NCBI GenBank assembly: GCA_023313575.1
Contig: JAJTTP010000043.1
Coordinates: 1 to 40,109, forward strand
DNA: 40,109 nt
DNA from: Eutypella sp. D-1
Taxonomy: Eukaryota > Ascomycota > Sordariomycetes > Xylariales > Diatrypaceae
Direction: 5' to 3'
Shown here: in pieces, positions 3,801 through 37,950 of the stretch
Numbering within the stretch: position 1 is the first letter of the stretch
Layout: each line of letters begins with the position of its first letter
Translations under genes and position numbers: made by a program
The notes under the pieces: generated by a model
Seen by the model: the letters and a program-made list of their open reading frames with translations, nothing else
Told to the model about the DNA's origin: nothing
Database searches by the model: none

Positions 3801-6800
3801 TAGTAAAACTTTGATAATATACTCAATCTGAGGCTCCGTCTATAAACCCCTCTGCTAAATATATCACATACATAATGTAAAAATCCTTAAATAGGCTAAT
3901 TATAGCCCTAATTTATACTTCATAGAAGGATGCATGATGTGTGGTAAAAGTATTTCTCTTAAAGTGGGAATAGATGAACTTTTTATATAAATAGAGTAAT
4001 TACCACTAGCTTTTAACGTTTGGATTGCACAATCCAAATCAAATTTATCTTTAAGTATTTTAACTAATAACTTCACTTCATCTAGAGAAAAACCCTTTAC
4101 TGCTAGTCTGACTCCGGGTCCAGCCCAACCTCCGTCATCTGCATTGGAGTAAATTGTATTAGAAGTTTAATATATTGAGAGCTGAATGTACACATCTTAG
4201 TTTTAACACTATAAGTAAAAAAATATATATGTAACATCTAACACCTTTTTATTTTTTAGACGTCTACTTTTAAGTCTATAGCTGCTTAACTAACCGAATT
4301 ATATTGTACCGACTCTTTTGTAACAATATTAGTTACGATAACGGACTCTTAAACTAAGATTAAAAAACTATCATTAATATTAGATAACGAATTAACATCA
4401 TCACTAAAAATTATTAAGCATCACCTATACAGGGGTTAAGCATCACCTAACAAAATGAAACCCACTAATACTGATATAACATCTTCATTATGAGGACCTA
4501 TTCTAGATGAAGCCCTTATTCAGTAAAGAATCTACGACATTGACAATTATTTAAGGTAACCTCGTTTAGAGATATATTATTTTTTCTTTGACCATAAGAG
4601 GTATTTACTATTACATTTAATATATACGGTTTGTGGCCACCAGGACCCTCTGCTAAAACTGACATTGAAGAATCATTAACTTCATCCATTAAGTATAATA
4701 ATTTGAATGAAGGGAATGCTATTAATATTAATATAACTGCCATTGCGGCCAAATTCTTCATACAAAAGTATACAAACCAGAACAATTTTATTCAATTATT
4801 AATAGTTAATCGAAAACTAACTAAGGGTTTATACCATTTCATAAACTATAAGAAAGTAGTATTCACTACCTGCTAACATCAAGCAGTAATAAACCTAAGA
4901 AAGCGAGCTATTACTAATTAAGTATTCATTAGCGGACAATCTTTTACTATTCATACCCTCCTGGAGTCTACGAAGCTCATTAATACCTCCAGTTGTAAGA
5001 TGAGCTCCCGCCCTTATGATATCAGCGGCCTTACATCAGTCCTCATAATCAATAGACTTTACACCTAATATTTTATGCTCTTGAAAGAAAGGGATAATTC
5101 TATCAATAAGATCCGTAAAATTACTAACCGTAAAATATAAAACTGAATTTCTAGAGTCCTTTTTTAATCTACCGCAATTAAAATAAGGACTGAAACTTTC
5201 CATAAAAACCTGGTCACGTGAATGTTGAGTAATTTGAAATCCTATCTCTGCTCGATATCCTACTTTGAATTCTTGGGATTTTCTTATAGTAAGATAGAAA
5301 CTACCATCCCCGGAAACAAACCCTGCCACTCAATCAGGGTTAGGTATTACTTGGTTTAAGGCTAAGGGTCTCAATACGGGTTTAACATTATGAAAAACTC
5401 TTTTTAATTCCTTAGATAAACCGTGATTTAAGGAAGCTTTAATAGAGATAATTTCATTCAAACCCTCTAGTGTTACATGCTCTTTATTACTCATCATCAG
5501 GACGATATCTCTAAAGAGAAGGTAATCTCCTAACTTTTGAGTAACGGGAAGATATACATTAAAGTGTGGTATTACTAACTTTAAAAGGTCTTTTAGAGAA
5601 TCTATTCTAAAAGTACAACTATCTTTAGATAAAACTATCTTACCTGCTCCTCCGAAAAAGGCTTGAATCTCTTTCAATAAATATAAATCCTTTCAATGTA
5701 AAGTTAATTGAAATCTAGCTCCTACCTGCCAACCAATACGAACACTAGAACTTTTTAAAACACTAACCGTGAAAGACCCTTCGGCATCTACAAACCCAGT
5801 TATAAATCACGGCTTGAGAGACGAAACAAGTTTAGGATTATTGACTGCAGCAGGTGACTGAAGAGCAAGAGTACGTGAAAAAATAGCTAGTGATTTACTA
5901 GAAGAAAGTTGTCTACTTTGTAATATTTGTTTAGAAAGGTTTTTGGTTTGATAGTTTCTCTCGAAACTCATTAGAGTGCACCTAAAACACATTATTTTTA
6001 ATTTAGATAAAGAAATGTGTTGACTACCTTCCACTCGTTGCTCTTTTACAGCAATATCCGAGGATATTGCTGATTTAGATCCGTGATTTTCCATTTCTCT
6101 TTTGATCATATTCTGACTTGTTACCTTACCTGAACAATTAATTCAGCCGCCGATATATCTTCATATATGGCTTGGTACCAGAAGCTTTAGGACGTCCCCG
6201 GAGTTTGGCAATTTTTCCCCGCTTAAATACGGCCCCCTGCGCCGCAGGAGAGGTGTTATAGTTCATATTAATTCTATGAGTGTCAACCTTTATTTGGACT
6301 ATATCTACAACCAACTTATAGTATTTCCATTTAATATTGTAATACCCCTATTACTTATCAAAATAAAAATATTAATAGATTGGCTGTTTCACGTGTAGTC
6401 TCTGAGAATCCTACTCTTAATCTTACTAGATTAATTTGGTTTCCTGCTGATTGTTAATTGTTACATCCCTTAAAGTTTTCACTGATAATATAAACATCTA
6501 GTTAGGTGTTCATATTTTAGTATCTAAGGGCGAGTTATAAGTTCCCAGCATATAGTGAAATTTTAATAATAGTTTTCCTGAGTTTACTCTGAAGATTATT
6601 TAGTTGAAAATTTGTATCTATCTTTAAATATTGCCCCTGAATTAACATATCTGTTAACAGTACTTCCACTCATCCCTAAGAATTTTCCAGCTCTTCTAGC
6701 TGACACAAAACTTCCGATTAGTTTAAATCCTTCCTTGCCACATTTTTCATATATATTCAAAAAATTTCCACGTACAGCACTCATTTTTAATTTCGTATCT

Positions 6801-9140
6801 TCACTGTGTTTTCTCCCTAAAGCTTTGTCTCTCATTAAGTTTTTAGTTTCCTCACTATGAGTTTTACCAAATAAAGGATTATTTTCACCAGTTTTTTTCA
6901 AACTCATTCGTTTTTTGGTTTCTTCACTAAATGTTTTACCAAATCAAGGTGATTTATCTCCAACATGTACTCCTTTTAAAGCTTGGCTGATTTTAGCTTT
7001 AGTTCCTTCTGAAAGAGTATGTCCAGAAGAACTACCTGCTGTTTTTAATATATTGTATACAGGTCCTAAACTATCTAAATAAAATTGTTCTCTTTCTTGT
7101 AACTCGGACTTTTCACAATATTCTAAAATAGTAAGAGAGAAATTTGAATATCCATATTTAATTAATGCTCTACTTATGATAAGGCTTTCTTTACTTTTTA
7201 AATAACTAGAATTAAAGTAATTTATAAATCTTAAAGCTAGATTAGGAGATTGTCCTACGTAAATATCTCCTGTGATTTTGTTAGTTCATAGGTAAATTCC
7301 AGATCTACCTTTGTTTTCTTTTATAATTAATTTTTTATCCGTGTAGATATCATCGTAGAATCTCTGGTTTTCTTGAGGATCAGTAGCAGGTAAAGAGGAA
7401 TAATTACGGATAAACATATTTATTGGTAAATTATCTCCAAATAGAACATCAGAACACTTTTTACTAGGCACACTTATAGACATTATCAAAGTACCATGAT
7501 TTAAATATTTATGAGAAATCAAAAAAACCTACTTCACCCTACTAAGAGTTAAATTATTCTAGTACAATTATGAACTTATATACAAAAATAAAATAGATAC
7601 ACTCCTCTATTCTTTTTTTATTAAGATTCTCCGCATGGATCTATTTTCTACCTAAATTCATACCAGCCTTAGTCTTACGTATAAGTTTTACCCCTTCACT
7701 TGTTAAATGTAAATCATTTTTCATTAACTGCCATACTTTTAAAAAATCCAAATAATTTAATAATTTGATTCCTTGTATAGGATATTTACCAAAAAAAGGA
7801 ACAAGTTTATTAGTTATATCGCTAAATTTTGTAACAATAAAATCTACTGATCTTACACTTACATAAATTTTTCCACAGTCTAAGTAATCAACTAAACTTC
7901 TCATAAGTTGTTCATCCGTATCCCCATCGGGGATGGGGCCCCCTCCCCTAGAGGGGAACGGGTGTTGTGTTAATTTAAAACGTAAAAGTACTTGAGTACG
8001 GCTATTAGGTCTATCCATAACTCTGACCATAAAAGATCCTTCAGCTGTAGTAAATCCTGCTAATCAATTAGGATCCGGTATTTTAGAATCTAAAACACTA
8101 GACCTTTTAACTGGAGTAATATTAGTAAAAGCATCTTTTAAGGTCTCAGGTAAACCTTTATTCATACCACCTCTTATTGCTAACAATTTATGGAAACCTT
8201 CTAATGTTAAATGTTCTTTTTTTTTTATAATTTCGAATGCAGATTTAAATAATAAATAGTCCGCAAATTTTTGGGTTATCAAAGGATATTTATCAAAATG
8301 ATCTATTAATATACTTATATCTTGGAACTGTCTTACATAATAAACACAAGTTCCATCAGATTTTTGATTAATACCACCTACACCTAAATAAGATTTAATG
8401 CTTTTTAAAATAGATAAATCTTTACCACTTAAATTTATTTCAAAAGCAACTCAAGAAGCCCATCCTATTTTAGTATTATTAGTTTGTTGTATATAAAGTA
8501 TAAAAGAAGCTTCTCCATCAGAGAAACCTGTAAAAAACCAAGGATCCATTTTTGACATAAGCTCATTATGATCAGTATCAATTGTACTAGTTGAAAATAA
8601 TTTATTACTCATTAGCTTAGAATGGTTGTAAATTTCATAGTTTCTCTCGAAACCCATTAGAGTACATCTTAAACAAGTGCCATAATATAACACCAGCCCA
8701 CCACCGTATACTCGTTGATCTTTTACAACACTACTGTTACATAATACTGACTTAGATTCGCGATCACCCATTTTGCTTTCACAAATCTCCTGACTTGTTA
8801 CCATACCTGAGTAATTACTTCAGCCATATACAACCTTTCGATTGCAATAAGGTATCAGGAGCTTTAGGGCTTCCCCGAAATTTGGCAATGTATACACCCA
8901 TGACATTGATTTACCCAATCCAGACTCTGAGTTAATAGGTGATTTAGTTTCAATATAATTTCTTATTATAGACAACATTACTCACGCTACAGAAAATAAG
9001 ATTATAACTAAATAATACATGATGTTATCATGTAATTCAACTAATCCTTCCATTTGAGGAGTAGCACTATCTTGAAAATATATTCCTCAAGGAGTTGGCA
9101 CATCAAAATTTATTTTGCATAAATAATTTAAAAATAACAT
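1..9140 (-). CDS. cox2: cox2, cytochrome c oxidase subunit II (split, 3' end outside window)
   Basis: Subunit II of complex IV; it carries the CuA centre that takes electrons from cytochrome c. Six exons are visible: 9140-8937, 7519-7484, 6274-6251, 4740-4645, 2865-2671 and 901-803. They join in frame under code 4 (TGA=Trp). Joined landmarks are [56 protein letters not shown] and [15 protein letters not shown], ending at GVFYG. The expected next residues QCSEICG (CuA ligands) are not in the window, so the last exon lies left of base 1. The start ATG at 9140 gives [19 protein letters not shown], normal for fungi. No frame error appears in the joined exons. Six group I introns interrupt it, all at strongly conserved codons. 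The exon-4/5 junction is the least certain because a second HQWYW-like segment lies upstream at 3340. Confidence 0.93.
803..901 (-). CDS. cox2: cox2 exon 6
   Basis: 33 codons from [16 protein letters not shown] to GVFYG, just before the CuA cysteine motif. The preceding intron ends in G (902). The intron following GGT leaves the window. Confidence 0.9.
902..2670 (-). mobile_element. cox2 intron 5 (group I)
   Basis: Intron between GDVIH and SYAVPSLG. Core on the minus strand at about 2640-2280: ACTCCGGGGAAGCCCTAAAGC, then GGATCTAAGTCAG, GAGCAACGAGTATACGG and AAGATATACTCTAGTC. The ribozyme is 5' and the GIY-YIG ORF 3'. The 3' end is ...TTCG at 902. Confidence 0.85.
940..2115 (-). CDS. GIY-YIG homing endonuclease (cox2 intron 5)
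   Basis: 391-residue intron-encoded endonuclease, intact. It has a hydrophobic N-terminus (about 1-35), then VRFYSTTPN at about residues 61-69 (matrix-peptidase-like). A conserved lead-in segment ([11 protein letters not shown]) follows, then the GIY-YIG domain GVYIF...[14 protein letters not shown] at about 140-170 with the catalytic Arg pair. The C-terminal part ends in a NUMOD-like DNA-binding helix region ([14 protein letters not shown]...KGYIFSKA). It is separated from exon 5 by the ribozyme core, so it must be translated independently or from a processed intron. No frame damage is visible. Confidence 0.88.
2671..2865 (-). CDS. cox2: cox2 exon 5
   Basis: 65 codons from HQWYW to GDVIH. 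It carries the conserved aromatic patch (two Trp as TGA) and [18 protein letters not shown] diverged copy of its first ~30 codons lies 475 bp upstream (3340-3250) but runs into an unrelated ORF. This copy is the one that continues as Cox2. Confidence 0.88.
2879..3340 (-). pseudogene. duplicated cox2 exon-5 start fused to an unrecognised ORF
   Basis: Open frame (code 4) of 153 codons. The first ~28 codons, [15 protein letters not shown] to IYSYLG, are a diverged copy of cox2 exon 5, preceded like it by TTTG (an intron-end-like G). The frame then departs from Cox2 and continues to residues such as NNGG-type linker, [14 protein letters not shown] and [15 protein letters not shown]. It stops with TAA (2881-2879) 13 bp before true exon 5. 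The CuA domain is missing, so splicing to this site would truncate Cox2. The second part has no family I recognise. Confidence 0.6.
3606..3725. repeat. two adjacent hexanucleotide arrays
   Basis: About ten copies of CTAATC (one variant, CTAATA) at 3606-3666, followed directly by about nine copies of GGATAT at 3670-3725. Both units resemble short pieces found singly elsewhere (for example 32565-32580), suggesting slippage growth of GC mini-element ends. Confidence 0.9.
3900..4145 (-). pseudogene. LAGLIDADG endonuclease, C-terminal fragment
   Basis: About 80 codons resembling the C-terminal half of two-motif LAGLIDADG proteins of the rnl/cox1 intron type: [17 protein letters not shown], then ...[35 protein letters not shown] and [11 protein letters not shown] before TAA. 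No N-terminal half is in frame upstream, so this is a relic within cox2 intron 4. Confidence 0.75.
4645..4740 (-). CDS. cox2: cox2 exon 4
   Basis: 32 codons, [12 protein letters not shown] to SMSVLAEG: the second transmembrane helix and the start of the intermembrane-space domain. Exon 4 ends in GGT, and the frame then runs into intron sequence (PGGHKPY). Confidence 0.9.
4741..6250 (-). mobile_element. cox2 intron 3 (group I, LAGLIDADG)
   Basis: Inserted after ACACCT (ITP). Core on the minus strand at about 6215-6035: AACTCCGGGGACGTCC, TCACGGATCTAAATCAGC, AAAGAGCAACGAGTGG. The reading frame from exon 3 stays open through the whole core into the endonuclease. Belongs to the sister family also found in nad2 i1, i2, i3, i5 and cox2 i1. 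Confidence 0.88.
4895..6250 (-). CDS. LAGLIDADG homing endonuclease (cox2 intron 3)
   Basis: Frame open from the exon, 451 residues under code 4. The core-encoded part contains [18 protein letters not shown] and VKEQRVEG, then SRQLSSSK, then two LAGLIDADG units: [15 protein letters not shown] (about 5800-5755) and [15 protein letters not shown] (about 5325-5285), each with its acidic catalytic residue. Conserved linkers IPHFNVYPVTQKL-like and [10 protein letters not shown] are present. Stop TAG at 4897-4895. It looks intact; the product is probably cut free of the Cox2 N-terminus. Confidence 0.88.
6251..6274 (-). CDS. cox2: cox2 exon 3 (8 codons)
   Basis: Micro-exon encoding ELIWTITP, with TGA as Trp. 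It bridges GTLI of exon 2 and [12 protein letters not shown] of exon 4. It ends with ACACCT, the target-like motif shared by several introns here. Confidence 0.85.
6275..7483 (-). mobile_element. cox2 intron 2 (group I, GIY-YIG)
   Basis: Lies between GTLI and ELIW. Core 3' of the ORF on the minus strand at about 6470-6290: AACAATCAGCAGGAAACC, then GGATTCTCAGAGACTACACGTG, then the S-like AGATATAGTCC. This core type differs from the sister family and matches nad2 intron 6. Confidence 0.87.
6596..7483 (-). CDS. GIY-YIG homing endonuclease (cox2 intron 2)
   Basis: Frame continuous with cox2 exon 2, about 295 residues. After [12 protein letters not shown] (cleavage-like) come the GIY-YIG strands SGIYLW and [14 protein letters not shown], the [18 protein letters not shown] block, NUMOD3 repeats ([27 protein letters not shown]), and a C-terminal NUMOD1 helix-turn-helix ([19 protein letters not shown]). 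All blocks are in frame with TGA as Trp. Looks intact. Confidence 0.88.
7484..7519 (-). CDS. cox2: cox2 exon 2 (12 codons)
   Basis: Micro-exon encoding [12 protein letters not shown], which continues KSP of exon 1 exactly as in fungal Cox2. The preceding intron ends in G. The following GIY-YIG ORF is in frame. The 3' boundary is uncertain by a few bases around ATA. Confidence 0.85.
7641..8936 (-). CDS. LAGLIDADG homing endonuclease with GC-element insertion (cox2 intron 1)
   Basis: 431 residues continuous with exon 1. Core-encoded [16 protein letters not shown] and VKDQRVYGG, then [10 protein letters not shown]. First LAGLIDADG unit [15 protein letters not shown] (about 8545-8500); second [14 protein letters not shown] (about 8070-8030). 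After LTQH a stretch [15 protein letters not shown] replaces the usual one or two residues before DEQLMRSL. This stretch is encoded by the GC-rich hairpin element at 7917-7965, which has also been found at 30705 and 31477. Frame is kept, so the protein may still fold, but activity is doubtful. Confidence 0.87.
7917..7965 (-). repeat. GC-rich double-hairpin element inside a LAGLIDADG gene
   Basis: Two adjacent inverted repeats: ATCCCCATCGGGGAT and CCCCTCCCCTAGAGGGG, joined by GGGCCC. Nearly the same sequence in opposite orientation occurs at 30705-30753 and 31477-31526, both outside genes. Confidence 0.9.
8937..9140 (-). CDS. cox2: cox2 exon 1
   Basis: 68 codons from ATG to KSP (CCT). It contains the N-terminus, the VPTPWG motif and the first transmembrane helix ([15 protein letters not shown]). 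The intron begins directly after CCT, and the reading frame stays open into the intron ORF. Confidence 0.92.
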
Positions 9141-9674: not shown

Positions 9675-11864
9675 TTATTTGTTGGTTTCTTTAAAAATCC
9701 TATCAATCACAGCTGATACCACCTTTACGATATGATCTATATCTTGCTCTTTAACGATAAATGGAGGTGCAATAATGATATGGTCCCCATTAACTCCGTC
9801 TACGGTACCAGTTCCTGGGTAAAATGTCATATTAAATTCAGGCGACTTTGCTAAGTGAACAATTTGATGAGAAACTCCTAATTTTGAGTCGAAGGGTTCC
9901 TTAGTTTCTTTATTTTCTACAAATTCTATACCCCAAAATAGACCTATCCCTCGGATATTTCCAACATTTGGATGATTACCTAATTCCTCTTTTAATCTTT
10001 CTCCTAAATAATCACCCTGATTTTTTACATTATCCAGCAAAGAGTCATCTTCAATAATTTGCTGAACCTTAAGAGCAGCAACCGCTCCTACAGGCACTGC
10101 ATCAAAGGTAAGTCCGTGAATAAACTGCTCAGTTTTTAACACCTCCCAAACACTTTGAGCAACCAAGATCGCCGCAATAGGGTGATATCCAGCTCCTAAG
10201 CCTTTACCTATTATTAAGATATCAGGTGCAACACCCTCTATCTGCCACGCATGATAAAACCCAGTTCGACCCATACCACACATTACTTCATCGAGTATTA
10301 AAAGAGCACCATATTTATGGCAAACCTCTTTCATTGCTTCGATGTACCCTGGAACAGCCGGGACACACCCAAGTGCAGCCCCACTGACAGGCTCTAATAT
10401 AAAGGCCATGACTTTTTCTGGGCCTATATTTTGGAACATTTTTTCTAATTCGTCTACTTTTCTTGCAACAAATTCAACATTAGACTCACCCTCTAATTGT
10501 TGACGATAAGAATAACATGAAGAAACGTGTTCAACCTTTTCCAGAAGAATGTCTTTATATGGCTCTTGTCTAATTTTGAATTCTGATACACTCAAAGCTC
10601 CTATGGTGTTCCCGTGATAACTGCCCTCACGACTTATGATGGTATTCCGGAGAGTATCAGGATCTTGGTCATAGAAATATTGACGAGCTAGCTTTAGCGC
10701 AGCTTCCGTGGCGTCAGATCCTGACCCTGTCAAAAAGACTTTGCTCAATACTCCATGAGTGCTATTCACAAGAAAATCTTGTAATTTTAACACATCCTTA
10801 TCCTTTCAGAAGGAGGATGCCAAATAGTGAGTTCCATTTATATATTTTTCACCTATGCCATTGATCACCTCTGAATTTCCGTAACCAATACTAGATACAG
10901 CTGCACCTGAACATGCGTCAAAAATTTTATTTCCATGCTCAGTCGTGAGGTAAAGACCTTCTCCTTTAGTAATTATGGGATAATACTTCTTAAAGTGATG
11001 ATTAAGTGATTTATTTTCAATTTTTAATTCAGACTGAACTGAATTATTTTTATTTTTAATATCTCATTTAATTTCATCTAAGTCTATTGCATTGAACACA
11101 AGAAATACAGCACCGGATATAACAAATACTACTTGATAAAAAAAAGCTAAAACCATTAAAAATAATATTAATCGAAGTAATTCCTCACATAATTTACTAG
11201 GTTTATTTTTAAGATGATATATTTTGTCGATCAAATAATATGTTATTTTTAAGGTTAGTAAACCCCCAATAATCTTTTTGGACAAGTAAAAAGATTCATT
11301 AAAAGATGGTGTGTAAAAATCAAAAAATAAGTAATTAGCTACAATATAAATAACTAAACCTAAAATTAAACTAAGTAATGCTAAATTAATTATCATATAC
11401 ACACTTTTAATAGAAGATTTAATTAAACAATCTCTATCTTTACATATTAAATAAACCATACATAAGCTAGGTATGATTGATCAAGTAGAGTAATAAATAG
11501 ATAAATCAATTTCAGATCTAAATAGGATTTGATATAAGGATACACCAAATAATACCGCAATTATACAGAAGAGAATTAAAGAATATTTTTGAATACTATC
11601 TTTTTTTATTAAATACAACCTACCTATATCAAAGAAACAAAATATAGCCGTTAAATTAATTTTTCCTTCTTTATTACTATCATTATTACATTGAGATATT
11701 TTTTTATTCTCATTTATTTTTTTTTTAGTACTATAGTCCCTTTTTTGTACAAAAGACAGAATATTTTCTTGGTTTTTATTCTTTTTTTTACAATACCCCG
11801 AAGTTAGAGCGATCCCGGGATAAGGTTTAAAACCAAATAATTTTTTACGTTGGCATAATAACAC
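9675..11864 (-). CDS. membrane-anchored class III aminotransferase-like ORF
   Basis: 729 residues in one frame if TGA is Trp (positions 128, 267 and 354); under the standard code it falls into pieces. The N-terminus is basic, with KRDYSTKKK at 41-49. Hydrophobic helices lie at about 94-115, 155-179 and 228-260, with a weaker one near 197-217. The fold-type I PLP domain spans about 295-729: TGSGSDATEA (379-388), SYHGNT (415-420), EPVSGAALG from E491, LILDEVMCGMGRTG with Asp525, and GKGLGAGYHP with the Schiff-base lysine K554. A complete C-terminal domain follows (GLFWGIEF, YPGTGTVDGVNGDH). All catalytic residues are present. The sequence resembles nuclear ascomycete class III aminotransferases, as I remember them; the substrate is unknown. 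It starts 17 bp after atp9. The catalytic half looks more GC-rich than its surroundings and mixes TGG with TGA, suggesting transfer followed by adaptation. Confidence 0.85.
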
Positions 11865-11881: not shown

Positions 11882-12482
<601 letters not shown>

Positions 12483-12770
12483 TCATAGTCTTCCATTTTT
12501 ATAGTCTTCCATTTTTTTAGGAGGACCAACATCTGGAACAGGTGGTTCAAGAACAGGTAAGCGTGGACCTCCCTTCGGTACCAATGGAAGTAAATCCATA
12601 TTCCTAGGGCCAGATGAAGAAGATGATACCGGCTTATACTTGGGATCCGTTTGGTGTGGTACCCTTTTACCAGGTTCCATATTAAAAGTACCTAAAATTA
12701 AGCCTACAACTACCAATATAACAGCTATGATACCAATTATACCCAAGTTCTCACCCATACCTCTGATCAA
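12483..12770 (-). CDS. unrecognised ORF with one membrane helix and Pro-rich tail
   Basis: 95 residues from the first ATG: a strong transmembrane segment (LGIIGIIAVILVVVGLIL, about 8-25) followed by a polar Ser/Pro tail (VSSSSSGPRN, VLEPPVPDVGPPKK). The code-4 frame stays open upstream to about 13018, including Cys- and Pro-rich residues, so an alternative-start protein of up to ~178 residues is possible. I recognise no family. It sits in the nad3-atp9 spacer, next to duplicated atp9 leader DNA. Confidence 0.45.
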   Translation of the reverse strand: MIRGMGENLGIIGIIAVILVVVGLILGTFNMEPGKRVPHQTDPKYKPVSSSSSGPRNMDLLPLVPKGGPRLPVLEPPVPDVGPPKKMEDYKNGRL

Positions 12771-13049
12771 ATATCGGATAGTATCTGTTATATGTACTAC
12801 ACAACCTCCTCAATCAACTGGGTTAACTATGGGTATACCACAACATACTGTACTTCCAGGATGTTCTATAGGCGTACCAGAACATCCTAGACTCGTAGGA
12901 TGTGAAGTGGAAAAAAAAACGTGGCACGTGAAACACCCCCCCCCGAATGCTACTTTGGCTTTTTGCTTGCGCGAACGTAAAGCAAGAGCAAAATAAGTAT
13001 CAAAATTTTTAGCCTTGTATACCTAACTCATGAATCCATTTTCTATTTT

Positions 13050-13460
13050 TTATTTTTTTTTAACCCCACTAAATATGTAATTGTTAGTCATTTGTTTTTA
13101 ACAAATTTAGATTATAAATCTTGAATTATATAATATGCAATTTCGCTCAGTGTAGCGAATGCGAAGCCTATGCCTTATAAATTATGCAATTTCGCTCAGT
13201 ATAGCGAATTGCGAAGCCCTTATAAATTATGCAATTTCGCTCAGTATAGCGAATTGCCTCCGTATATCGAATTGCGAAGCCTATGCCTTATAAATTATGC
13301 CGACATATGATCTTATTTCAGAAAATATTCGCAATCAAAAGAAAGGTTCATTAGTAGAATAGAACCCATTTGAAGTTGGATCAGCGTTTTTAACCAATTT
13401 AGATTAAAAATCTTGAATTATATAATTATGTAATTTCGCTCAGTATGGCTAAGCCCACGC
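13050..13460. repeat. duplicated atp9 leader and local tandem repeats
   Basis: Copy of 12115-12380. Within it the unit AATTTCGCTCAGTATAGCGAATTGCGAAGCC plus TTATAAATTATGC is repeated about three times (13135-13300). A third partial copy lies at 13388-13450. The units contain the small hairpin GCAATTTCGC...GCGAATTGC. Confidence 0.8.
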
Positions 13461-14707: not shown

Positions 14708-15157
14708 TTATAGATTTCTTTCTCTTCTATCTCTATCTAACTCCTCCTTGGCATATTTATATTTTTCTCCCTCAAAATAAGAAGCAAAATCACCTGTTGC
14801 TTCATCAAAAACAGACTCAACGTCCTTTTTTCTTGCTCCTAATGCCTCAGGATCATCTTTATATGCTGCAGCTAAATCCTCCGCTTTTTCTGATTTAATT
14901 TTTTCAGCTTCAGTTACAACAGGGACAGGATTATTTCTAGCAAACTCCATTCCAAAAGACTTTAACTTGGTTTTGTCACTAGGTGACAAAGTATCCTTTC
15001 CACCACACCCATCATCACAACCTGCATATTTAATATCAGTAACACTAAAATTACGAACAAACATAAAACCTGGTAGAACATTAAAAGCTAGAGAGTTAAC
15101 AATTACAGCACCGCTAGCTGTTACACTTCTCTTGTGGATGTTTAATTTTTTTTCCAC
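14708..15157 (-). CDS. unrecognised 149-residue ORF, acidic/helical
   Basis: Starts MEKKLNIHKRS, then a weakly hydrophobic stretch and FVRNFSVTD at 33-41, which resembles a mitochondrial presequence and cleavage site. A Cys/Gly cluster (GCDDGCGG) and a charged, probably helical remainder (TEAEKIKSEKAEDLAAAYKD, EKYKYAKEELDRD) follow. Stop TAA. Codon composition is more GC-rich than the intron ORFs. Lies between atp9 and the displaced nad3 copy. I do not recognise a family. Confidence 0.45.
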   Translation of the reverse strand: MEKKLNIHKRSVTASGAVIVNSLAFNVLPGFMFVRNFSVTDIKYAGCDDGCGGKDTLSPSDKTKLKSFGMEFARNNPVPVVTEAEKIKSEKAEDLAAAYKDDPEALGARKKDVESVFDEATGDFASYFEGEKYKYAKEELDRDRRERNL

Positions 15158-15185
15158 TCGTAGAATAGTATCTTTTTTAAACTCC

Positions 15186-15497
15186 CTATGTATTCCATTC
15201 TAGTTCTGGGTTCTTCAACTCCATATCCCTTCGGGATCAGGAGGCAGATGAAAAATTCTTCAACTGTTTATTAGATATTTGTAGTGCTCCTTTCCCGAGC
15301 TCAAAAACAAAACCTATAGTTAAGATACTAGTAAATATTAATACTATTACTAGCCCATAAACACTGTTAACATAAGAACTAACAGCATAAGGGTATATTA
15401 ATAATATTTCTAAGTAAAAAAGAAGGAACAACAAGACATAAATGAAGAAGGAAATATTAAAAGGCAATCTAGTTTGAAGGTAAGAATGAAATCCACA
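15186..15497 (-). pseudogene. nad3: nad3, displaced 3' part (second copy)
   Basis: Begins CGFHSYLQTRLPFNIS and runs through the second and third Nad3 helices to FELGKGALQISNKQ. It then continues through a GC mini-element (GATCCCGAAGGGAT) to TAG at 15188-15186 (TGA at 15237 read as Trp). There is no 5' part upstream. The conserved LLFDLEILL reads LLFYLEILL here, a change in a near-invariant acid, which argues against function. The central ~110 bp is almost identical to the complete nad3 while both ends diverge. Confidence 0.85.
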
Positions 15498-15814
15498 TAG
15501 AGTTCTTCTTAAATAACAAATACCCTAATGCATAGTGCTTAAAAACAAGTATAAATATTTAGTATTTTACCCCTACACTACCCACACTATATAACTATGC
15601 TAATCTATGAGCAACCAAGCGATCTGTACAAAATACCCCTAATACTAAAGATTCATAAAGGACATCTAAATTTAGTGAAAAAGTCAAGCAATAAACCTAT
15701 AAAAAAAAAGCATAGCAAAAATATATTAATTTTTTTTAAATTCCAAAGTTTATATATATATTGCATTGATTTTACGAGAGGATACGAACATTGGCTAAAG
15801 TTTGCGCCATAAGA
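15498..15814. other. short spacer before displaced nad3 part
   Basis: No gene supported. I see no group I core here, which argues against the GIY-YIG segment being an ordinary intron. A 71-codon frame on the + strand (15597-15812) has no recognisable features. Confidence 0.6.
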
Positions 15815-16567
15815 CTAGTCTTCATCAAATAAACCAGACTTACAATAAGTAAAGAAGTATTTATTATTGTATGGTACACCTAAAGCCAAATATTGCCTAA
15901 TAGTAGAATGTACCAGTCCTGTGGCTCTCGCAGCAGAACGAATAGTAGAATATACAGTTATAGTATTAGTTTCTAAATCTAATACTTCTATTTGAACACC
16001 AATACGTCAAGATTATACAACTTTCACCGATTTTACATAAGTTTTCTGTAATTTTGTTATAATATATCTTTTATCTATAGGACGTACCTCCCCTTTTGAT
16101 ATATATAAACTAATACGGGATCTAGATATCTTTAATTCTCTTTCTGCTTGAAACAAAGAATCATATACTTTCTCAGTACTTGTTAATAAGTCTAGAACTG
16201 AAATAGAAACACTCCCCGGTTGAGCTTTGGATATTCTTTCTATAGTAGACTTACTATGTTTATACCCTACTCTAGAAGGCATCACATTTGACTTTTGAAC
16301 GAGATTATACTCCGGACGGATCGAAGCTATATAATAATTTTCCCTGTCTTCAAGGTCCTCAGGCAGACAATATTATAAAATTTATAACTTAAAACCTGAA
16401 TGACCATATTTAATTAAAGCCCGACAAATTAACATATTATAATTTTCTTTAAGATGATTTAAATTATAATAACTGAGAAATCTCTCTTTCAAGTTTACAG
16501 AAGATCCTATATAGCTTTTACCGTTATCGATGTTAATTCAACGATAAATACCAGATTTATTCTAATT
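15815..16567 (-). pseudogene. GIY-YIG endonuclease, decayed (between the nad3 copies)
   Basis: In frame with the nad3 extension after two stops. Strands SGIYRW and KSYIGSSVNLKERF are recognisable, then GFKL*IL*YC, where both stops are TAA in place of the usual GAA. ENYYIASIRPEYNL, GYKHSKSTIERIS and a NUMOD1 unit (SRSRISLYI) follow, another TAA, then a second unit (STIRSAARATGLVHSTIRQY). At least five stops; not functional. Confidence 0.85.
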
Positions 16568-17071
16568 TTATTTGAAAATTATAATTTTATAGCTGAGCAC
16601 ATCATCATAGACTTTTACAGAAGAATTACTAGAACTCCCATTGGAATAATTTCTACGTTGATAAAAAGATCCACCAATAAAAGAGATTGTTTTAATAGAT
16701 CTTCTTTCCAAAGAATTAGATTGTTTACTATCAATTTTTAAAGCACCTTTACCTATTTCAAAAACAAAACCTATAGTTAAGATAATAGTAAATATTAATA
16801 CTATTACTAGCCCATAAACACTGTTAACATAAGAACTAACAGCATAAGGGTATATTAATAATATTTCTAAATCAAAAAGAAGGAACAACAAGGCATATAT
16901 GAAAAAAGAGATGTTGAACGGTAATCTAGTTTGTAAAAAAGAATGAAAGCCGCATTCAAAAGCAGAGACTTTTTCCTTGTAAGGGTTGTGCGGTGCCAAT
17001 AATAAATTTATTACTAAAAATAAAGCTGCTATAATACAAACAAAAAGAATAAAAAATGTCATTGAACTCAT
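16568..17071 (-). CDS. nad3: nad3, NADH dehydrogenase subunit 3 (hybrid, extended)
   Basis: Complex I membrane subunit. MSSMTFF start, LLLAPHNPYKEK, FECGFHSF, LLFDLEILLIYPYAV and IGKGALKIDSKQ give a complete ~135-residue Nad3. The frame does not stop there but runs on 32 residues, including YQRRNYSNGSSSN (cleavage-like), to TAA at 16568, immediately before a decayed GIY-YIG endonuclease. The 3' part is duplicated at 15497-15186. I infer the present 3' half came with the endonuclease element and displaced the native one; removal of the tail would restore a normal Nad3. Confidence 0.93.
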   Translation of the reverse strand: MSSMTFFILFVCIIAALFLVINLLLAPHNPYKEKVSAFECGFHSFLQTRLPFNISFFIYALLFLLFDLEILLIYPYAVSSYVNSVYGLVIVLIFTIILTIGFVFEIGKGALKIDSKQSNSLERRSIKTISFIGGSFYQRRNYSNGSSSNSSVKVYDDVLSYKIIIFK

Positions 17072-17116
17072 TTAAGGATTAAATAAAATATGAGTCATAT
17101 TGACTCCCATACTTAA

Positions 17117-18721
17117 TCACAACCTTGTGGAAATCACGCTACTTTCTAAAGTAGGTGTCACACTCTCTGAAAAGCTCGCACCCTCAGATTTTTTTATATA
17201 AACTGGTTTATTATTTATCAAAAGAGGTTCTCCTTTTAACATATAACGAGTAATCAAATTTCTAGTTTCACCTAAAGATTGAGCACAAGCTGTTAAAGTT
17301 TCAAATTTTTCAATAACATTACCATCTCCATTTTGAAGTATAACAGCTATGCTATTTTTATCTCTGTAATATTCATTTTCAGAGATTACCCAGATTCTAC
17401 CCTCTTCTTTGATTTCATAGTTACTAGGTAGTGATAATAACTCTTCTATTTTGGTTAGTAGTTCTTCTCTACTGACTAATTTAGATTTAGAATTTGAAAG
17501 TCTTTTAGCATTCATTTGACTTAAGATTAGATCTATTAATTCTTTACCTGAAGGTAAAGAATGTAAACCTTTTTCCATTTTTTTTTTTACGAAAAAAAAA
17601 AAATGGATTAGTTTTCAATCCTGGAAATCTAAATACTTTTTACTATGTCATTCCATGGAATCAAATAAAGGTATAAACACTTTACTTAAATAATCTGTAC
17701 GAGTAATATCTAATACTATCATATCAGATTGTTTACCATCTGTTTTATCCTTTCTCTTTTCAACATAGATGTAAGCAAAAGAAGGTGTATCTTTATCAGG
17801 TCTAACTTGGGTTTGCATTCCTTCTATTAATCCGTTAGATAAACAAGGTAAATTATTAAAATAATATCTAATAGCTTCCATTAAGTATAAGTTCGTCATA
17901 GATTGACCTAAACCAAACACTAAACTATATGAAAGACCACCAGATCTTTTTGAAACAAAAAATGTACCATCTCATTCCATTGTTTTATGTGCGAAGCTAC
18001 CGGAGGATATGAAAAATAGATTTTTTCTTTGTAAAAAAATTACAAAACCCAGTAATCAATTAGGTGTATTAGAAATAGGATTTTTTAAGTAATAATCAGA
18101 CATATCAAAATCTGTTCTATTATAGTTCATATTACTTTTGAATATCTTTATTTCTTCTAAAACTTCTGTAATTTTTCCTTTGTTGTTTATGTATAATTCG
18201 AAGGCTTGTTTAAAGTTAAGATAATTTCAAGCTTTATTTGATTTTAAAGGATGTAAAGCGAATATCTTTAATAATAATATTATCTCATCCTTAGCAGTGA
18301 CTGTAAAATAAGCTGCATTACTAAAAGTAGCTACCCTACCTATTCCTAACTCTTGTTGTATAAAGCACAACATATTTATGTCATCTTTATGTACTCCAAT
18401 TTCAAATTTAAAATTTTTTCCGTTTCTCTTCAGCTTGTTAAAGTGAAGAGAAAGAGGAAAAAAGAGGCGGAGCCGCGAACAAGAAGTACCTTTGTTTACA
18501 ATAGATCTTAAAAATAACCCCTCTCCTTTTTTTTTTAAACAACAGGCTAGCCCAGTAAATCACTCAAAAAACTTCTTTTTTATAGGCGAAGCCTCAGCAT
18601 CATTACTAGAAACAATTAAAGGTTTCAAAGGATCTGTAGAGTAAAATCTCCCTATAGAGAGACTACTTTTATAACTGAAGATATTGCCATTAGAGAACAG
18701 ATAAAAAGTTGAATTATACAT
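17117..18721 (-). CDS. freestanding LAGLIDADG-like ORF directly behind nad2
   Basis: 534 residues (code 4, no TAA/TAG). The ATG begins on the base after the nad2 TAA. IGRFYSTDP at about residues 24-32 is cleavage-like. Both LAGLIDADG units are recognisable but split by inserted residues: WFTGL-ACCLKKK-GEGLF and NWLLGFV-(about 20 residues)-MEWDGTFFVSK. The extra residues around 18440 and 17990 coincide with a hairpin (TTTCTCTTC...GAAGAGAAA) and a GCGAAGC mini-element. Linkers ALHPLKSNKAWNYLNFKQAF fit the family. The C-terminal ~150 residues (after MEKGLHSLP) look like a NUMOD-type DNA-binding region (FETLTACAQSLGETRN). No host intron is visible, so it may be co-translated with nad2. Confidence 0.75.
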
Positions 18722-19162: not shown

Positions 19163-22100
19163 CGGCTAATTATTTAATTTTTCCTCCCGATACCCGAGTC
19201 TAGGAGGTTCCGGATAAAACCTCCTTCCTCGGAGGAGAGGAATCGATAGTCGTAGACTCCTGCTGTAAAGCTAGAAGGGCTAAACTATTTTGAAATCCTA
19301 CAATAAGAAAAAAGCCTAGCTACTTTTGTCTTGCCAAACTCAAATAGACTACTACATATTCAATATTCTTATTACCCCGCCTACGAAGTTGGCAGCCCTA
19401 ATAAGGGAAAAGGTCTGAAATAAATTCATTCACATTACTCTTCTTCGTTTTGTGATCTCTGTCTATTCATATTAGCTTTTATCTTTATAATTTTTTCGAC
19501 CCCGGTATTTGTAATATGTTCTTTGTCTATTATCAATTTCACTACAAGACATCAATCATCGAAATCCTTAGATTTCACACCTACAATAGGATATTTTTGA
19601 AAAAAGGGCATAATTATATCACGAGTATCCCGCAAATTTTTTACCGAAAAATCCAATCGGTCACCCCTGTGTTCTATTTTTCCGCACCCAAAATAATCAA
19701 TAAAGCTTTTCATTAAATTTTCATCACGATTATGTTGAGTAATTGTAAATCCTAACATTACCCTAAACCCCGTCAGGTTTTTCAAATGTTCTTGCACAAA
19801 AACTTTAAAACATCCTTCACCACTGGTGAACCCTGCTACTCATTGGGGATCTTTCACCTTCTTATTTTCAACGAGAGGTCTAGGATATGAATCGGAAATT
19901 TGTGTACTAAATTCTGTTTTTAATGCATCACTTAATCCTAAATTCATAGATGATTTCATAGCTACTATTTTTACTAACCCCTCTTGAGTTAATTGTTCCT
20001 TATTAATAATCATTCTCACTACCTCTTTAAATAATAGATAATCTGCTAACTTCTGAGTTATTAAAGGGTATTTATCAAAGTGAGGTAATATAGTATCTCG
20101 AAGATGTTTACTTGACTCTACTCGATAACTTACATTACCCTTTCCGAAATATATTTTACCTACTCCAAAGTAAGCTTGGATTCCTTCTAGTATATTAAAA
20201 TCTTTTTCATGGAGCCTAATGACAAATATAGCCTCCACTTTTCAACCTAAACTATGAGTTTTGGATTTGCTAATTTTAATAGAAAAACAACCTTCAGCGT
20301 CAGTAAACCCTGTAACGAAATTAGGAGAAAGAACTATTTTAGAGTCTGAATATGATGAATAAGACCTTTTATTAATCAAAGAGGTTAAATTACTTTTTTC
20401 CTCTCATATCTGGCATCCTCCAACGGAGAATTTGAGTCTTAAACTCTCTTGATAGGAGTATAGGGTATAATTACCATTAAAAATGATAATATCTTTAATT
20501 TCAAAACTAAATAATCGACGTACGATATTCATAAAAATATTTATATGGACTTTATCTTCAGAGAGTGGGTTAATAAAAGCTACACTCTAAGTATCACGTG
20601 AAGTCTCTGAGGATCCTACTCATAATGGCATATTATTTTGGTTTCCTGCTGATTGTTCAAAATTAGACATTTTCACTAAATTATGCCCGACGATAAAAAA
20701 ATTTTTTCAACCCCTCTCCCCCCTCTTCTGGTTTGCGATCTGAAGTTATGAAGAGAGAAATAAAAGATGTAGAAGGATCATAAAAAGATGTAAAAAGGTA
20801 GGGAGAGAAGCTAAAAGTCGCGTAAGTGGGACTAAATTATAGTAGTATAATTGTAAGAAGTTTCCAGCATATGGTGATATTTTTTTTTAATAATAATAGA
20901 TATAAGTAGTTTCAGCCACCTTAATCCTACAGAGCGACGGCCAATACCTACAGTTCTCTATATATTTTTATTATATATATAGGGATCTTAGGAATTAATC
21001 TATTATTATGGTTGTGGGCATTCTCGTTCACACCTACAAAAGAAAAGATTGTAATTGCTAAACTTAAGGCTAAAATAGGATTAACATAAAAATATCCTCT
21101 TAACTGGCTAATTAATTGTACCACGGCGGTAAAATTTTTTCATACAAATAAATACATAAAGAAAGATGTGTGCTGTACTTCGTTAGAAGTATGCCTACCA
21201 AAAGATTATACAATGAAACAATAAAACCGAGCTTTTAGCGCCCTAGTATTATATATTTATGGCGAAGCAACTCTACCAGTATTCATACCCACTTTTAATT
21301 TACGCAATTGCTCTAACCCTTCATTAGTTAAATGTCCTTTTACTTTCATTATATCTACTGCTTTACTAAAATCTAAAAAATCCTTAGATTTCGCACCTTG
21401 TAAGGGCATATTTTTAAACAAAGGAATAACTATCTCAGATAGATCTTTCAATTTTAGAATTTGAAAATCAACTTGATTTTCTCTAAATCTTAAGAATACT
21501 TTACCGCAGCCCCAAAATTTTACTAAGCTATTCATAAATACTTTATCAATAGAGTGCTGAGTTATATTATATCTTAGTTGTACTTGCCATCCTGTCTTTA
21601 CTGTTGACGATTTAGTGATTCTAATGCTAAAACACCCTTCTCCTTCTGTGAAACCTACCATTCAAGAAGGAGCAATATTTGAGTTTAATAATTCTTCATC
21701 AGAACGTATCGATCTTACAGCCGGAGTAATATCAGGGAAAGCAGTCTTCAATGATTCAGGAAGACCTAAATTCATAGAGGCTTTAAGAGATATAATTTTA
21801 TGTAAACCAGAAATAGTTAAATGTTCTTTTTGATTAACCAAGGTAACTATTTGTGAAAATAACTTAAAATCTTCAAGTTTTTTAGTTAAAAGAGGATATT
21901 TCTCAAAATGATTTACTATTACCTTTAAACCTTTTAAAGATTGTACCATATAATTAGAAGATTCCTCTTTATGATAAATTTCTCCTACACCTCAAAATGT
22001 TCTAATTTTTTCTAATAAATTAAAATCTCTTTGGTGTAAACCTATCTGAAAAACAAGTTGTACTGTTCAGCCTACTTTTACTGAATTACTCTTAATTATT

Positions 22101-25100
22101 CTCACTGTAAAATTAGATTCAGCATCGGAGAAACCTGTTAAATATCAAGGGTTTAGATTATTTGATAAATTATATAATAAGTTTTTAGATATAGAAGTAT
22201 ATGATCTTCTTAATGTATTTATTTGGTTAGAAAGGATTTTTATTTGATAGTTTCTCTCGAAACCCATTAGAGTATACCTTAAATGTGTTAAATTAACACA
22301 CCTATGACCATCTACCCGTTGCTCCTTTACAGATAAATTCTCTGATTTAGATCCACGATATTCCATTTCTCTTTTGAGAATCTTCTGGCTTGTTACCGTA
22401 CACCAGTAGTTAATTGGTCCACTAACGAACTTTAGGTCGCAGCTTGGTACCAGAAGCTTTAGAAATTTTCCGGAATTTGATCATAAAACCCACTGCAAGA
22501 TATTATTTGCTACATCAATAAGTAGCAACCACGGCCATAACACCCGATATTGCAGAGGTTTCCTAGACCCTCCAGCAGGTGAATTATTTTTATCCAATAA
22601 TTCTTTATGTTCTTTATTATCAGTTACATAAAAATAGTAAGAGAATCCTATTGTAACTAATATAATGAATGCATTTAAATTACTTATTGAATACTGCATT
22701 AAATAGAACACAAAAGCCTGAAGAGATTCTATACTAGTAATACTTAACGCTAATAATATAAAACCTACATGACTTATAGTACTATCTTGAAAAGGTATGA
22801 TAACACTAATAAAATAACGAACCTAGTTATACCCTAGTTGAGCAAAGGTATAACTTATTATGTATTAACTTGCAACTCACCCTAATAATATAATCATAAC
22901 CTGCTATAAAATTCTTCTTTTATCTCGTTTAGTCTACGGTAGGATCATTAGTAACTACACCTTCAGAATTCATAAATTCTGTTCTATTAATATTCATACC
23001 CCTTTTAATTTCATTAATTTGGGCTGCACCTTCACTTGTAAGATGACCTTTATTTTTAATAATATCCGCAGCTATCGCTCAGTCCTTAAAATCGTTAGCT
23101 TTGGCTCCACAAATAGGATACTTTCTAAAAAATTCTACTATTCTAGAATTATCCCCGAATTTAGTACAAGTATAATATCCTCATTCCTTAAGTTTAGGGC
23201 TAACAAATTGACCGCATGAGAAATAATCAACTAAACTCCTTAATAGTTCTTCATCACGAAGATGTTGAGCTATTTGGAATACTAAGAGGAATCCTACTCC
23301 GACCTTGTTACGACCTTGTTTCTTTAAGATATAGAAACACCCGCTTCGCACACCTGTTGTAAATCCGGCTACTCACTCTGCATGCGGGATTAAACGGTCC
23401 TTCTTTTCAAGAACTGGCCTAGATACTGAGATAGTATTAGGAAAAGCTAATTTCAAGTCTTCTGACAATCCTAAATTGATAGATGCACGAAGATTAACTA
23501 TATCTTGAAGACCTTCCGTCAGTAAATGTTGACCAGCCTTCATCTTTAACACTACTTCTTTTCATAATAAATAATCTTCTCTCTTATGCGTAATAAGGGG
23601 ATATTTGTCAAAATGGGGCAAGATATAATTCAGAATATCTTTCTGAGAACTTACTCTGTAGGCTACAACATCTTTCCCTTGTTTAACAATACTTCCTATT
23701 CCACCGAAATAAGCTTGTATTTGCTCCAAAAGAGCTAAGTCCCTCTTATGAAGTCCTATTCTAAACACGGTTTCTACACGTCAACCTAGACGAAACTCAT
23801 CGTTCTTTCTAACAATAACCACAAAACTACCTTCAGCATCCGCGAACCCTGAAATAAATCAAGGTGAAAGAATGCCAAGTGACAACTTCTGAGTATCGTC
23901 TTTATTTTTGTTTGAAAAAGATTCATTAAGACTCATTACCTTTGAAGTGTGTATGTAAGAAGTTGTGCTAAACTGTACCTTGTGCCTGGCTATTAACGAA
24001 ACTGCTTGACCTAAAAGAATTCCAGAAGATAATGGGGCTATAAAATTAGTTATAGGGCTAATAGCAATCAATACATTAGGGTTCGCAGGGCCAAAGCAAA
24101 AATTTTTTACCAGACCCTCTAAACTAACCTTATTAGTTATGGTATGGCCTAACCTATTCAAAGAGTACACCTTAATTACAAGCTCTCCTATTTGCATGTA
24201 ACAACCGCCGTCTACTCGTTGCTCTTTTACAGTTTTACTTTAACATACCACTGATTTAGATCCGCGATAGTCCACTTCTCTTACAATAACTAAAATATTA
24301 TCTTCAGATCATTATCTGAATTATTACCTTACACGGGTGATTATTCCGTCCACTCAAGACCTTCGTCCTTAAGTTTGGTATCAGACATGTTAGGATTTCC
24401 CCGGAGTTTGACGGTTACGCTCACAATTACTCACCTCACCTACCATTCACTAAAGTGGTAGTTTATTATAAGATTAAATCCTAAATAATCTAACTCTTTA
24501 ATACATTATATTCCAACGCTTGAATTTACCAGAGTATTAGAATGCAATGAATAATTTAAAAAAGGGGGTAGGGAGGGGTACTATAAGCCAATAATCTTTT
24601 AATTCTAAACTGAGTTAAACCTACTACTGTACCTATTATTAATGATAATAAAGAACTCATTAATAAACCAAAGGTTCAATTAAAATCAGTAAAATAATTG
24701 CTTGTAAAGTATACTATTTCTAATAATAAGATAAATATAGAAATTTTGGCTAAAATAGCTACAAACGTAGTTACGATAGTAGGTATTGCGTCATAAACGT
24801 CCATGGTTACTAAATTTCTCGTCCAAATTAAAGAAAAGAACGACTTCATATAAAATACTCAATAATAAACATATTGTCTAAAATTACAATATAAACATGT
24901 AATATTATATACTTATATTAAATAATATAGACCCCCAGAGGGGTTTAAAAAAAATCCAAACTAAAATCTTAAACAATATAAACAATACAATTAAGAAGAT
25001 TTAGATTTTAGTTTGGATTTTTTTATTTAACCGGAGGCCGCGGGTTTGTATTAGTATTTTTATTTTAAATATCTACCTTTATTCATTCCTACCTTTATTT

Positions 25101-35310: not shown

Positions 35311-35392
35311 TACCCTAAGAGAGACTTGAACCCCCACGAATTTACTTCGAACTAATTTAACTAATTTCTGTCTACCATTCCAGCATTAGGGT
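35311..35392 (-). tRNA. trnL(uaa): tRNA-Leu (TAA)
   Basis: 82 nt. Acceptor ACCCTAA/TTAGGGT, D stem CTG/CAG, anticodon stem AATTA/TAGTT with loop GTTAAAT, variable arm CGAA-GTAAA-TTCG, T arm GGGGG-TTCAAGT-CTCTC. Flanked by half copies of a second tRNA-Leu (35722-35690 and 33627-33579). Confidence 0.9.
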
Positions 35393-35494
35393 TTTAGGTT
35401 TATTAATAGACAAACATAATACTACATTTATCTTACATACCTCTACACAATTATAAAAATAATAAAAAAAAATAAAGGAAATAACTTCATAGAG

Positions 35495-35523
35495 GGAAGG
35501 TCTGCCAATTCCAGCACTCAGGC
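35495..35523 (-). pseudogene. second 5' tRNA-Leu-like fragment
   Basis: GCCTGAG-TG-CTGGAATTGGCAGACC resembles the acceptor and D arm of the tRNA-Leu genes but has no 3' partner in the window. Confidence 0.55.
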
Positions 35524-35689
35524 TATACTATGTCTATATATAATACACCTAAATATCCGTTCATTGATAAATAAAAAGTTGGGTTTCGAGTATATCACTA
35601 TAACTTTTCAGTACAAAATATCCAATTTAAGGATTAGTTTATCATTTAATTTCATTCTATAATGAAATATAACGGGTCGCTGGGAGGGC

Positions 35690-35722
35690 GAATTCCCTGT
35701 ATACCATTTTCAGCACTTAGGT
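35690..35722 (-). pseudogene. 5' half of a tRNA-Leu, broken in the anticodon loop
   Basis: ACCTAAG acceptor strand, TG, D arm CTGAAAATGGTATACAG, G, GAATT, C; the tRNA match then ends and a GC-rich stretch follows. The acceptor strand is exactly complementary to that of the 3' half at 33627-33579. Confidence 0.75.
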
Positions 35723-35723
35723 T

Positions 35724-37269: not shown

Positions 37270-37950
37270 ATGAAAAAAAAATCTAAAAATAATGATACTA
37301 ATAACTTTAAATATAAACATTTTAATATTCCTTCTACATTGGATTTAACTCTATGAGATAATACTAAATTCACCACGGAGAATACAGCTTATTCAACGTT
37401 ACAATTAAAAGATGATAACGGGAACTTTTATTCTGTGGATATATTAAGTTCTATAAAAGAAAATTCTATTACACATTTTATTAAGAATACTGATACATTA
37501 CTTCTAACCATTGAAGATAATATGTTAAACCCATAGGATTTATCTGAAATTAAAAGAATTATTACTGAAAATGATAATATAAATACATATCATTTATTTA
37601 ATCTTATCCTCCCAGAAGAATGCCGAAACTCCGTTTACCGCAGGGATCGGACTTAGATAATACTAATGAAAATATTATAACTAAGAAAATTCCTATAGCT
37701 GTATCTGTTTATGATGGAAAAACCAACAGATATTAATGTGTCTTTAAAGATATAAAAATTTGAACTGAATAATTATCTTATTAAAAATGTTTTAATGAAG
37801 AGAAAATATGATTACCCTAAAATTTATATACTTCTCTTATTTTGATGCTATTTTTATAATAGATTATTTATCCGCATTAGGTGAAGTTAAACCTGTGTTT
37901 AGAGATAATAAAATATTAAAATCCACATTTTAATTCAAAATTAAGGAGCT
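37270..37950 (+). pseudogene. dpo: plasmid-type family B DNA polymerase (dpo), decayed
   Basis: The only gene-like item on the + strand. The frame starts MKKKSKNNDTNNFKYKHFNI and contains STLDLTLWDN, ITHFIKNTDTLLLTIEDN, then a stop. After frame changes it reads PIAVSVYDGKTNRY and FDAIFIIDYLSALGEVKPVF, which resemble the exonuclease region (ExoI and ExoII) of protein-primed polymerases of linear mitochondrial plasmids. Several stops and frameshifts, and no polymerase motifs (DxxSLYP, DTD) follow. GC mini-elements have landed just behind it (37985, 38060). Interpreted as a remnant of an integrated linear plasmid. Confidence 0.65.

Follow-up and report, generated by a model that had tools for sequence, protein, structure and literature searches.

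The window, the whole stretch of 40,109 nucleotides that was analyzed, is contig C38 of a 48.5 Mb assembly in 72 contigs. Its content, all of it on the minus strand, is that of mitochondrial DNA: tRNAs, nad3, atp9, a cox2 exon and a large number of code-4 intron ORFs; exons of nad2 were read by eye. Between a complete atp9 (11882–12106) and the first exon of cox2 with its LAGLIDADG intron ORF (7641–9140), the next gene downstream, lies a 729-codon code-4 frame on the same strand (9675–11864, stop codon at 9675–9677), here called AT1. It encodes a basic N-terminal leader (residues 1–44, 11733–11864), a presequence-cleavage-like motif at the leader's end (R42-D43-Y44↓S45-T46, 11727–11741, the arrow marking the cut), a membrane domain with five predicted helices (residues 79–272, 11049–11630) and a class III PLP aminotransferase of omega-type fold (residues 288–729, 9678–11003). 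The first-pass annotation had recognized the single frame; its coordinates, strand, length and freedom from stops were exact on recheck, and its three TGA codons are W128, W267 and W353. The first codon, GTG, lies 17 nt past the atp9 stop; GTG is uncommon as a start, and this one is putative.

The surroundings of AT1 include several duplications and small ORFs. The atp9 5' region is duplicated nearby (12111–12220 and 13048–13157, 110 nt, 95% identity), and five short copies of an element containing TTTCGCTCAGT are found near the duplicates. Two hypothetical ORFs have no Pfam match (12327–13022 and 14708–15199); the former contains a hydrophobic segment, judged by eye, and differs between contigs C36 and C38 (PRFFST vs CHVFFST). 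Positions 15186–17071 hold nad3, then a GIY-YIG-like endonuclease fragment (16016–16372, by eye) and then a partial second nad3 3' end (234 nt, 87% identical), an arrangement resembling the replacement of the nad3 end by a mobile element. The intact nad3 has a tail with QRRNYSN at its end. A LAGLIDADG ORF (17072–18721) begins immediately past the stop of the putative last nad2 exon frame and runs up to the nad3 ATG, and its last residues are similar to the end of nad2.

A homologue search, from which we took the best 120 of 7887 matches among 7999 candidates scored, returned proteins that span nearly all of AT1. The best of the matches listed, P0002 (746 aa), is 88% identical over 100% of the query, and P0003–P0011 show 50–60% identity over 82–96% of it. 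Because homologues cover nearly the whole frame, AT1 is not a chance ORF. All ten align with AT1 over both the membrane domain and the enzyme, the former being truncated in P0009.

The catalytic part belongs to the class III PLP aminotransferases: profile PF00202 spans residues 296–719 (E 5.2e-78) at 263 bits against a gathering cut-off of 30.5. The enzyme had been described as complete with its key residues, and both residues are invariant in all 11 aligned sequences, AT1 included: Asp525 (codon at 10290–10292, aligned with ADEV of structure 5kr6), presumably the pyridine-nitrogen aspartate, and Lys554 (codon at 10203–10205, aligned with the AKGL lysine of 5kr6), which we take to be the Schiff-base lysine. 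With 479.4 bits AT1 falls just below the curated cut-off of 485 for NF005685 (PRK07483), a family that it resembles without belonging to it as curated. Several homologues are labelled BioA by one source; AT1 itself scores 257.8 bits against the BioA profile (TIGR00508), for which the cut-off is 405. Amine:pyruvate transaminases carry a flipping arginine near the C-terminus. The arginine that precedes AMPHGD in 5kr6 has no arginine opposite it in AT1, which has an insertion at this place, where the alignment is uncertain.

The membrane domain had been credited with three or four helices. Plain hydropathy finds three cores above threshold, and structure models revise the count to about five, at approximately residues 95–116, 127–142, 144–179, 188–217 and 222 to 272 or beyond (whole-protein model, mean pLDDT 70 from 11 sequences; domain modelled alone, mean pLDDT 79 from 15 sequences). 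The mean net charge of the helix flanks alternates along the family, +1.4/−1.3/+1.9/−1.1/+2.6/−1.6 (10 or 11 of 11 rows). Under the positive-inside rule for membrane topology, these averages weakly predict a start in the matrix, five helices and an enzyme in the intermembrane space. The prediction is weak for the side of the enzyme because only the mean charge past the last helix is negative: it is 0 in AT1, positive in four sequences (P0002, P0003, P0004 and P0011) and negative in the remaining six. Given the length of the last hydrophobic stretch, a hairpin within it would reverse the predicted side, and export of a 440-residue enzyme to the intermembrane space would be unusual. Judged by the topology of nad4L, a relative fused to that protein would have its enzyme in the matrix. 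A profile search with the membrane domain (four proteins among 7997 candidates scored) revealed no clear relative outside the family; the matches, at least four, comprise one truncated fusion and three short ORFs without enzyme, which look like fragments. A second search (2489 candidates) returned two proteins, both fusions.

Phylogeny places AT1 in one clade of 12 rows (SH-aLRT 99; 100/99 in a second tree), which includes members fused to respiratory genes. In P0005, P0006, P0007 and P0010 nad3 stands in front of the aminotransferase in frame, and in P0008 the first half of atp9 does so. One clade member, P0004, is an Annulohypoxylon stygium protein with an AT1-type membrane domain and 60% identity to AT1; both domains in one frame and the grouping in the tree place AT1 in the same membrane-aminotransferase family. 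P0012, from Dematophora, consists of nad3 and the enzyme, with no membrane domain. Outside the clade, nad4L precedes the enzyme in P0013 and nad5 in P0022 and P0031; P0107 carries nad3 in front, and its long branch makes its placement, also outside the clade, unsure. That the membrane-aminotransferase proteins form one family with members fused in frame to nad3 or atp9 seems to be new, as does the fusion of related aminotransferases to nad4L or nad5. The first-pass annotation had pointed to aminotransferase-like ORFs in some leotiomycete mtDNAs; the nearest named relatives of AT1 are Xylariales, and named leotiomycete homologues fall elsewhere in the tree.

Eight of the 12 clade rows are located in mtDNA by their fusion, by a name matching a published gene or by being the window itself; the other four are without independent location, and among them P0002 is mitochondrial by assumption. 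For a wider comparison, 17 rows were assigned to the mitochondrion on the basis of a fusion, a name or a published gene; these include AT1 and AT2 themselves, P0029 as presumably mitochondrial, and P0002, whose sole ground is its 88% identity. Another 30 rows were treated as nuclear (contigs over 180 kb not named mitochondrial). The tree needs three changes between nucleus and mitochondrion, and the data do not reject one single clade of mitochondrial rows (p 0.35). A nuclear aminotransferase homologue lies in several pieces on contig C1 of the same assembly.

The same mtDNA holds a second gene, AT2, at C33:12955–14622 and also on C37 and C57. It contains three TGA codons, is 51% identical to AT1 over residues 284–727 and falls outside the AT1 clade. 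AT2 continues in frame from a copy of atp9 in which 54 bases are missing (18 residues, the polar loop), the repeat ATTTTGGGA stands at the junction and the ATG reads TTG. The 737 bases that end in this copy form a block with 99% identity to 12005–12741 of the window, on the minus strand, which comprises the 5' part of atp9 and its upstream region. Taken together with AT1, the fusion means that an atp9 leader plus an aminotransferase occurs twice in one mtDNA, by different routes. A second aminotransferase fused to a damaged atp9 duplicate in the same mtDNA seems to be new.

The sequences bear the marks of conservation. AT1 and P0002 share 92.5% identity across the enzyme and 89% across the membrane domain; residues 1–40 are the least conserved part, at 69% (27 of 39 identical), and residues 41–729 align without a gap. 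The 11 aligned sequences share 126 invariant columns, of which the catalytic part accounts for 120. A comparison of AT1 with AT2 over 438 codons gives differences of 37% at the first codon position, 26% at the second and 54% at the third, a pattern of purifying selection. The earlier suggestion of selection inside the mitochondrion thus gains indirect support from the eight clade rows in mtDNA and the invariant columns. Codon use bears on the origin of the gene. GC at third positions is 0.30 in the AT1 enzyme, 0.29 in AT2, 0.27 in atp9, 0.15 in the AT1 membrane part and 0.20 in nine endonuclease pieces. Among the six tryptophan codons of AT1, both of those in the membrane and linker part are TGA, against one TGA and three TGG in the catalytic part; the TGA:TGG ratio is 3:1 in AT2 and 27:7 in endonucleases. 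TGG at three of the four tryptophans of the enzyme part tips codon use slightly towards a nuclear origin for that part, but its third-position GC is near that of atp9; an old import from the nucleus is allowed by these figures but not shown.

A presequence-like site on the basic leader had been pointed out, and it stands in AT1 before the membrane domain as KRDY↓STKK. It has the form of a mitochondrial processing peptidase (MPP) site, R-x-[FY]↓S-[ST], behind a basic leader, which makes AT1 a candidate MPP substrate by sequence. The leaders of the homologues differ in alignment, and a related motif, defined post hoc, lies near the same junction in eight of the 11 sequences, AT1 included; the strict R.[FY]S[ST], counted by eye, is present in four (P0001, which is AT1, P0002, P0008 and P0011). 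The post-hoc pattern has no match in P0003, P0006, P0009, P0012, P0013, P0022 and P0031, and AT2 lacks the motif, so cleavage would not be a general property of aminotransferases made in mitochondria.

Other ORFs of this mtDNA contain the motif more often than expected. The coding strand of C33 and C36 has 65 code-4 frames of at least 150 residues; they contain 13 copies of the strict form, where shuffles give 1.2 (maximum 5 of 500), and 15 of the wider R.[FYL][SA][ST], where shuffles give 3.7 (maximum 10). On C33 alone (36 frames) the strict form occurs six times against 0.66, a count reached by 0 of 2000 shuffles; eight altered patterns match there 0 to 3 times, the three matches being of K.[FY]S[ST]. 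The other strand has none, but its 11 frames give an expectation of only 0.25, and so it is no real control. In endonuclease ORFs, a strict site precedes a LAGLIDADG-like pattern by 10–60 residues in seven of 25 frames (null 0.15, maximum 3 of 2000) and a relaxed one in 12 (null 1.6, maximum 7), the other 13 having neither. In the seven frames the strict site lies 16–23 residues ahead of the LAGLIDADG domain, apparently just past the translated intron core. Variants in the long frames include RLYST, RFYST, RSYSS and others, and frames with the motif in the window include 25060–26544, 19435–20532, 17072–18721, 940–2256 and 6596–7522. Common descent of endonuclease leaders may explain part of the excess. 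We did not find the motif described for mtDNA-encoded proteins in those parts of the literature, mostly from non-subscription journals, that join processing peptidase with homing endonucleases, intron-encoded or mtDNA-encoded proteins (among them PMC7272585 and PMC8847149); an MPP-like site before the AT1 membrane domain, with an excess of the same motif in other ORFs of the mtDNA, seems to be new.

We propose, with a probability of roughly 60%, that AT1 resides and is expressed in the mitochondrion, and that it encodes a class III (omega-type) aminotransferase anchored in the inner membrane, its expression riding on that of atp9. On the sequence evidence it is a real and apparently functional gene. 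AT1 would share a transcript with atp9, and mitoribosomes would begin its translation at the GTG just past the atp9 stop. Its basic leader would be cut at R-D-Y↓S-T by MPP, a matrix enzyme that normally acts on imported proteins. The membrane domain would be inserted during translation and would hold the enzyme at the inner membrane, where it may catalyze transamination between a keto acid and a donor that is either an omega-amino compound or an amino acid. The gene probably reached the mtDNA long ago from nuclear fungal aminotransferases, and may stay expressible by hitching to respiratory genes. A broader and more speculative idea, which we hold to be doubtful, is that fungal mtDNA makes polyproteins: captured enzymes and homing endonucleases would be extensions of respiratory genes or of translated intron cores, released by MPP at R-x-[FY]↓S-[ST] just before the cargo, and the freed AT1 membrane domain would send the enzyme to the intermembrane space.

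The data speak in differing degrees to other explanations. AT1 could be a passenger, a captured nuclear gene with little or no translation that is kept for a time by chance. The presence of two aminotransferase genes, the duplicated leaders and the apparently truncated relatives P0122 and P0123 suggest turnover in these genomes, but the catalytic residues are invariant across a clade with long branches, the alignment with P0002 is gapless past the leader, the differences from AT2 follow codon position and TGA codons are in use, all of which makes this reading unlikely. We consider it quite unlikely that the two halves of AT1 are separate gene products, arising by RNA or protein processing or from a start before residue 288. 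The hydrophilic linker between them (residues 263–287) varies in length among homologues, P0012 does without the membrane domain, and the three short ORFs without enzyme, fragment-like as they are, would fit as well. Against this, nine of the 11 aligned sequences have no methionine in the linker, and the other membrane-domain matches are fusions. AT1 lacks methionine from residue 238 to 475, so there is no ATG start just before its enzyme; an ATG in the last helix (residue 237) could start a shorter product. In the linkers of P0005 and P0011 a short segment (NNSSEVKIFDNS; SKITDKSLINN) is repeated in tandem and in frame, apparently by slippage.

AT1 might also be made as an Atp9 fusion, by a −1 ribosome slip within atp9 and run-on into AT1. 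From one stop to the next the AT1 frame measures 810 residues and stays open upstream through all of atp9, which has a T TTT TTG heptamer in the right register, and AT2 and P0008 are in-frame atp9 fusions. Among 4000 synonymous recodings of atp9, however, 12% leave the −1 frame open and 38% contain a slippery heptamer, so neither feature is remarkable; moreover, P0002 begins at the equivalent residue and the N-terminus of the A. stygium protein P0004 is unrelated, which leaves such a fusion highly improbable. Hardly credible, finally, is an assembly artefact, a nuclear copy of mtDNA or contamination. The assembly does contain overlapping mitochondrial contigs (C33, C36, C38 and C57), but positions 35324–40109 of the window equal the end of C33 at 100% (a 4786-base end overlap), and positions 1–34941 match part of C36, which encodes the AT1 protein at 100%, at 99.95%. 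Nad3, atp9, cox2, tRNAs and intact code-4 intron ORFs surround AT1, and a published report places a gene at the same position in A. stygium (PMC6140425). These findings contradict an artefact; the first-pass annotation, too, had argued against contamination or a recent nuclear copy.

As a rule genes move out of mtDNA; in this case a metabolic enzyme appears to have moved in and to have persisted while a fungal clade diverged. Its relatives form a natural series of routes by which a foreign mtDNA gene becomes expressible: placed after atp9, within a damaged copy of it, or attached to the end of nad3, with nad4L or nad5 taking that role for related aminotransferases. The shared putative cutting motif makes the maturation of fused mitochondrial ORFs directly testable by proteomics. 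If the polyprotein idea is true, a nuclear-encoded import enzyme matures proteins made in the mitochondrion, and the cutting site is the feature that lets foreign genes settle in mtDNA. There is also a warning for annotation, as a deposited 892-residue nad3 entry contains a whole enzyme.

The closest known system is the mtDNA of A. stygium, where an aminotransferase class-III like gene lies between atp9 and cox2 in all six isolates studied, and has two short introns (PMC6140425, as available in part). P0004, which we take to be its product, is homologous to AT1 over membrane domain and enzyme; the published gene differs in its introns, AT1 being a continuous frame, and the N-terminal leaders are unrelated. 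The available text of that report does not mention a membrane domain. A metabolic enzyme in mtDNA had been singled out as unusual: the gene is real, but the surprise is reduced because mitochondrial aminotransferase genes, including one at this very position, are already published. The expectation that no membrane fusion had been described agrees with the portions of the fungal mitochondrial aminotransferase literature searched, and as far as that search goes the membrane domain is new as a family trait. In Nemania diffusa, P0006 (892 aa, named NADH-ubiquinone oxidoreductase chain 3) is an AT1-type membrane-aminotransferase that, unlike AT1, is joined in frame to the nad3 C-terminus; the text of the mitogenome paper does not mention an aminotransferase (PMC7748715). 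The mitochondrial aminotransferase of Pestalotiopsis fici is described, in the part of the source available, as standalone and intergenic (PMC11277600). Aminotransferases encoded in mitochondrial introns appear in excerpts of an Ophiostoma paper (PMC7902536) and of a review (PMC8393795), the latter describing the fusion of intron ORFs to upstream exons as core creep; later processing of such fused ORFs has been supposed, with no protease named in the accessible portion of the report (PMC5626475). NF005685 (PRK07483) and omega-type structures such as 5kr6 have no membrane domain in the region matched to AT1. P0029 of Juglanconis oblonga, named 'putative aminotransferase' by its source and presumably mitochondrial in location, has R-S-Y-S-T before the enzyme; unlike AT1, it lies outside the AT1 clade and its sequence has no AT1-type membrane domain. 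A laboratory counterpart is ARG8m, reportedly a yeast class III aminotransferase gene recoded and put in mtDNA as a reporter. Although it is man-made and has no membrane domain, unlike AT1, ARG8m is said to show that an enzyme of class III is functional if synthesized within the mitochondrion, that it needs the leader of a mitochondrial gene, and that its product can be released from a fusion.
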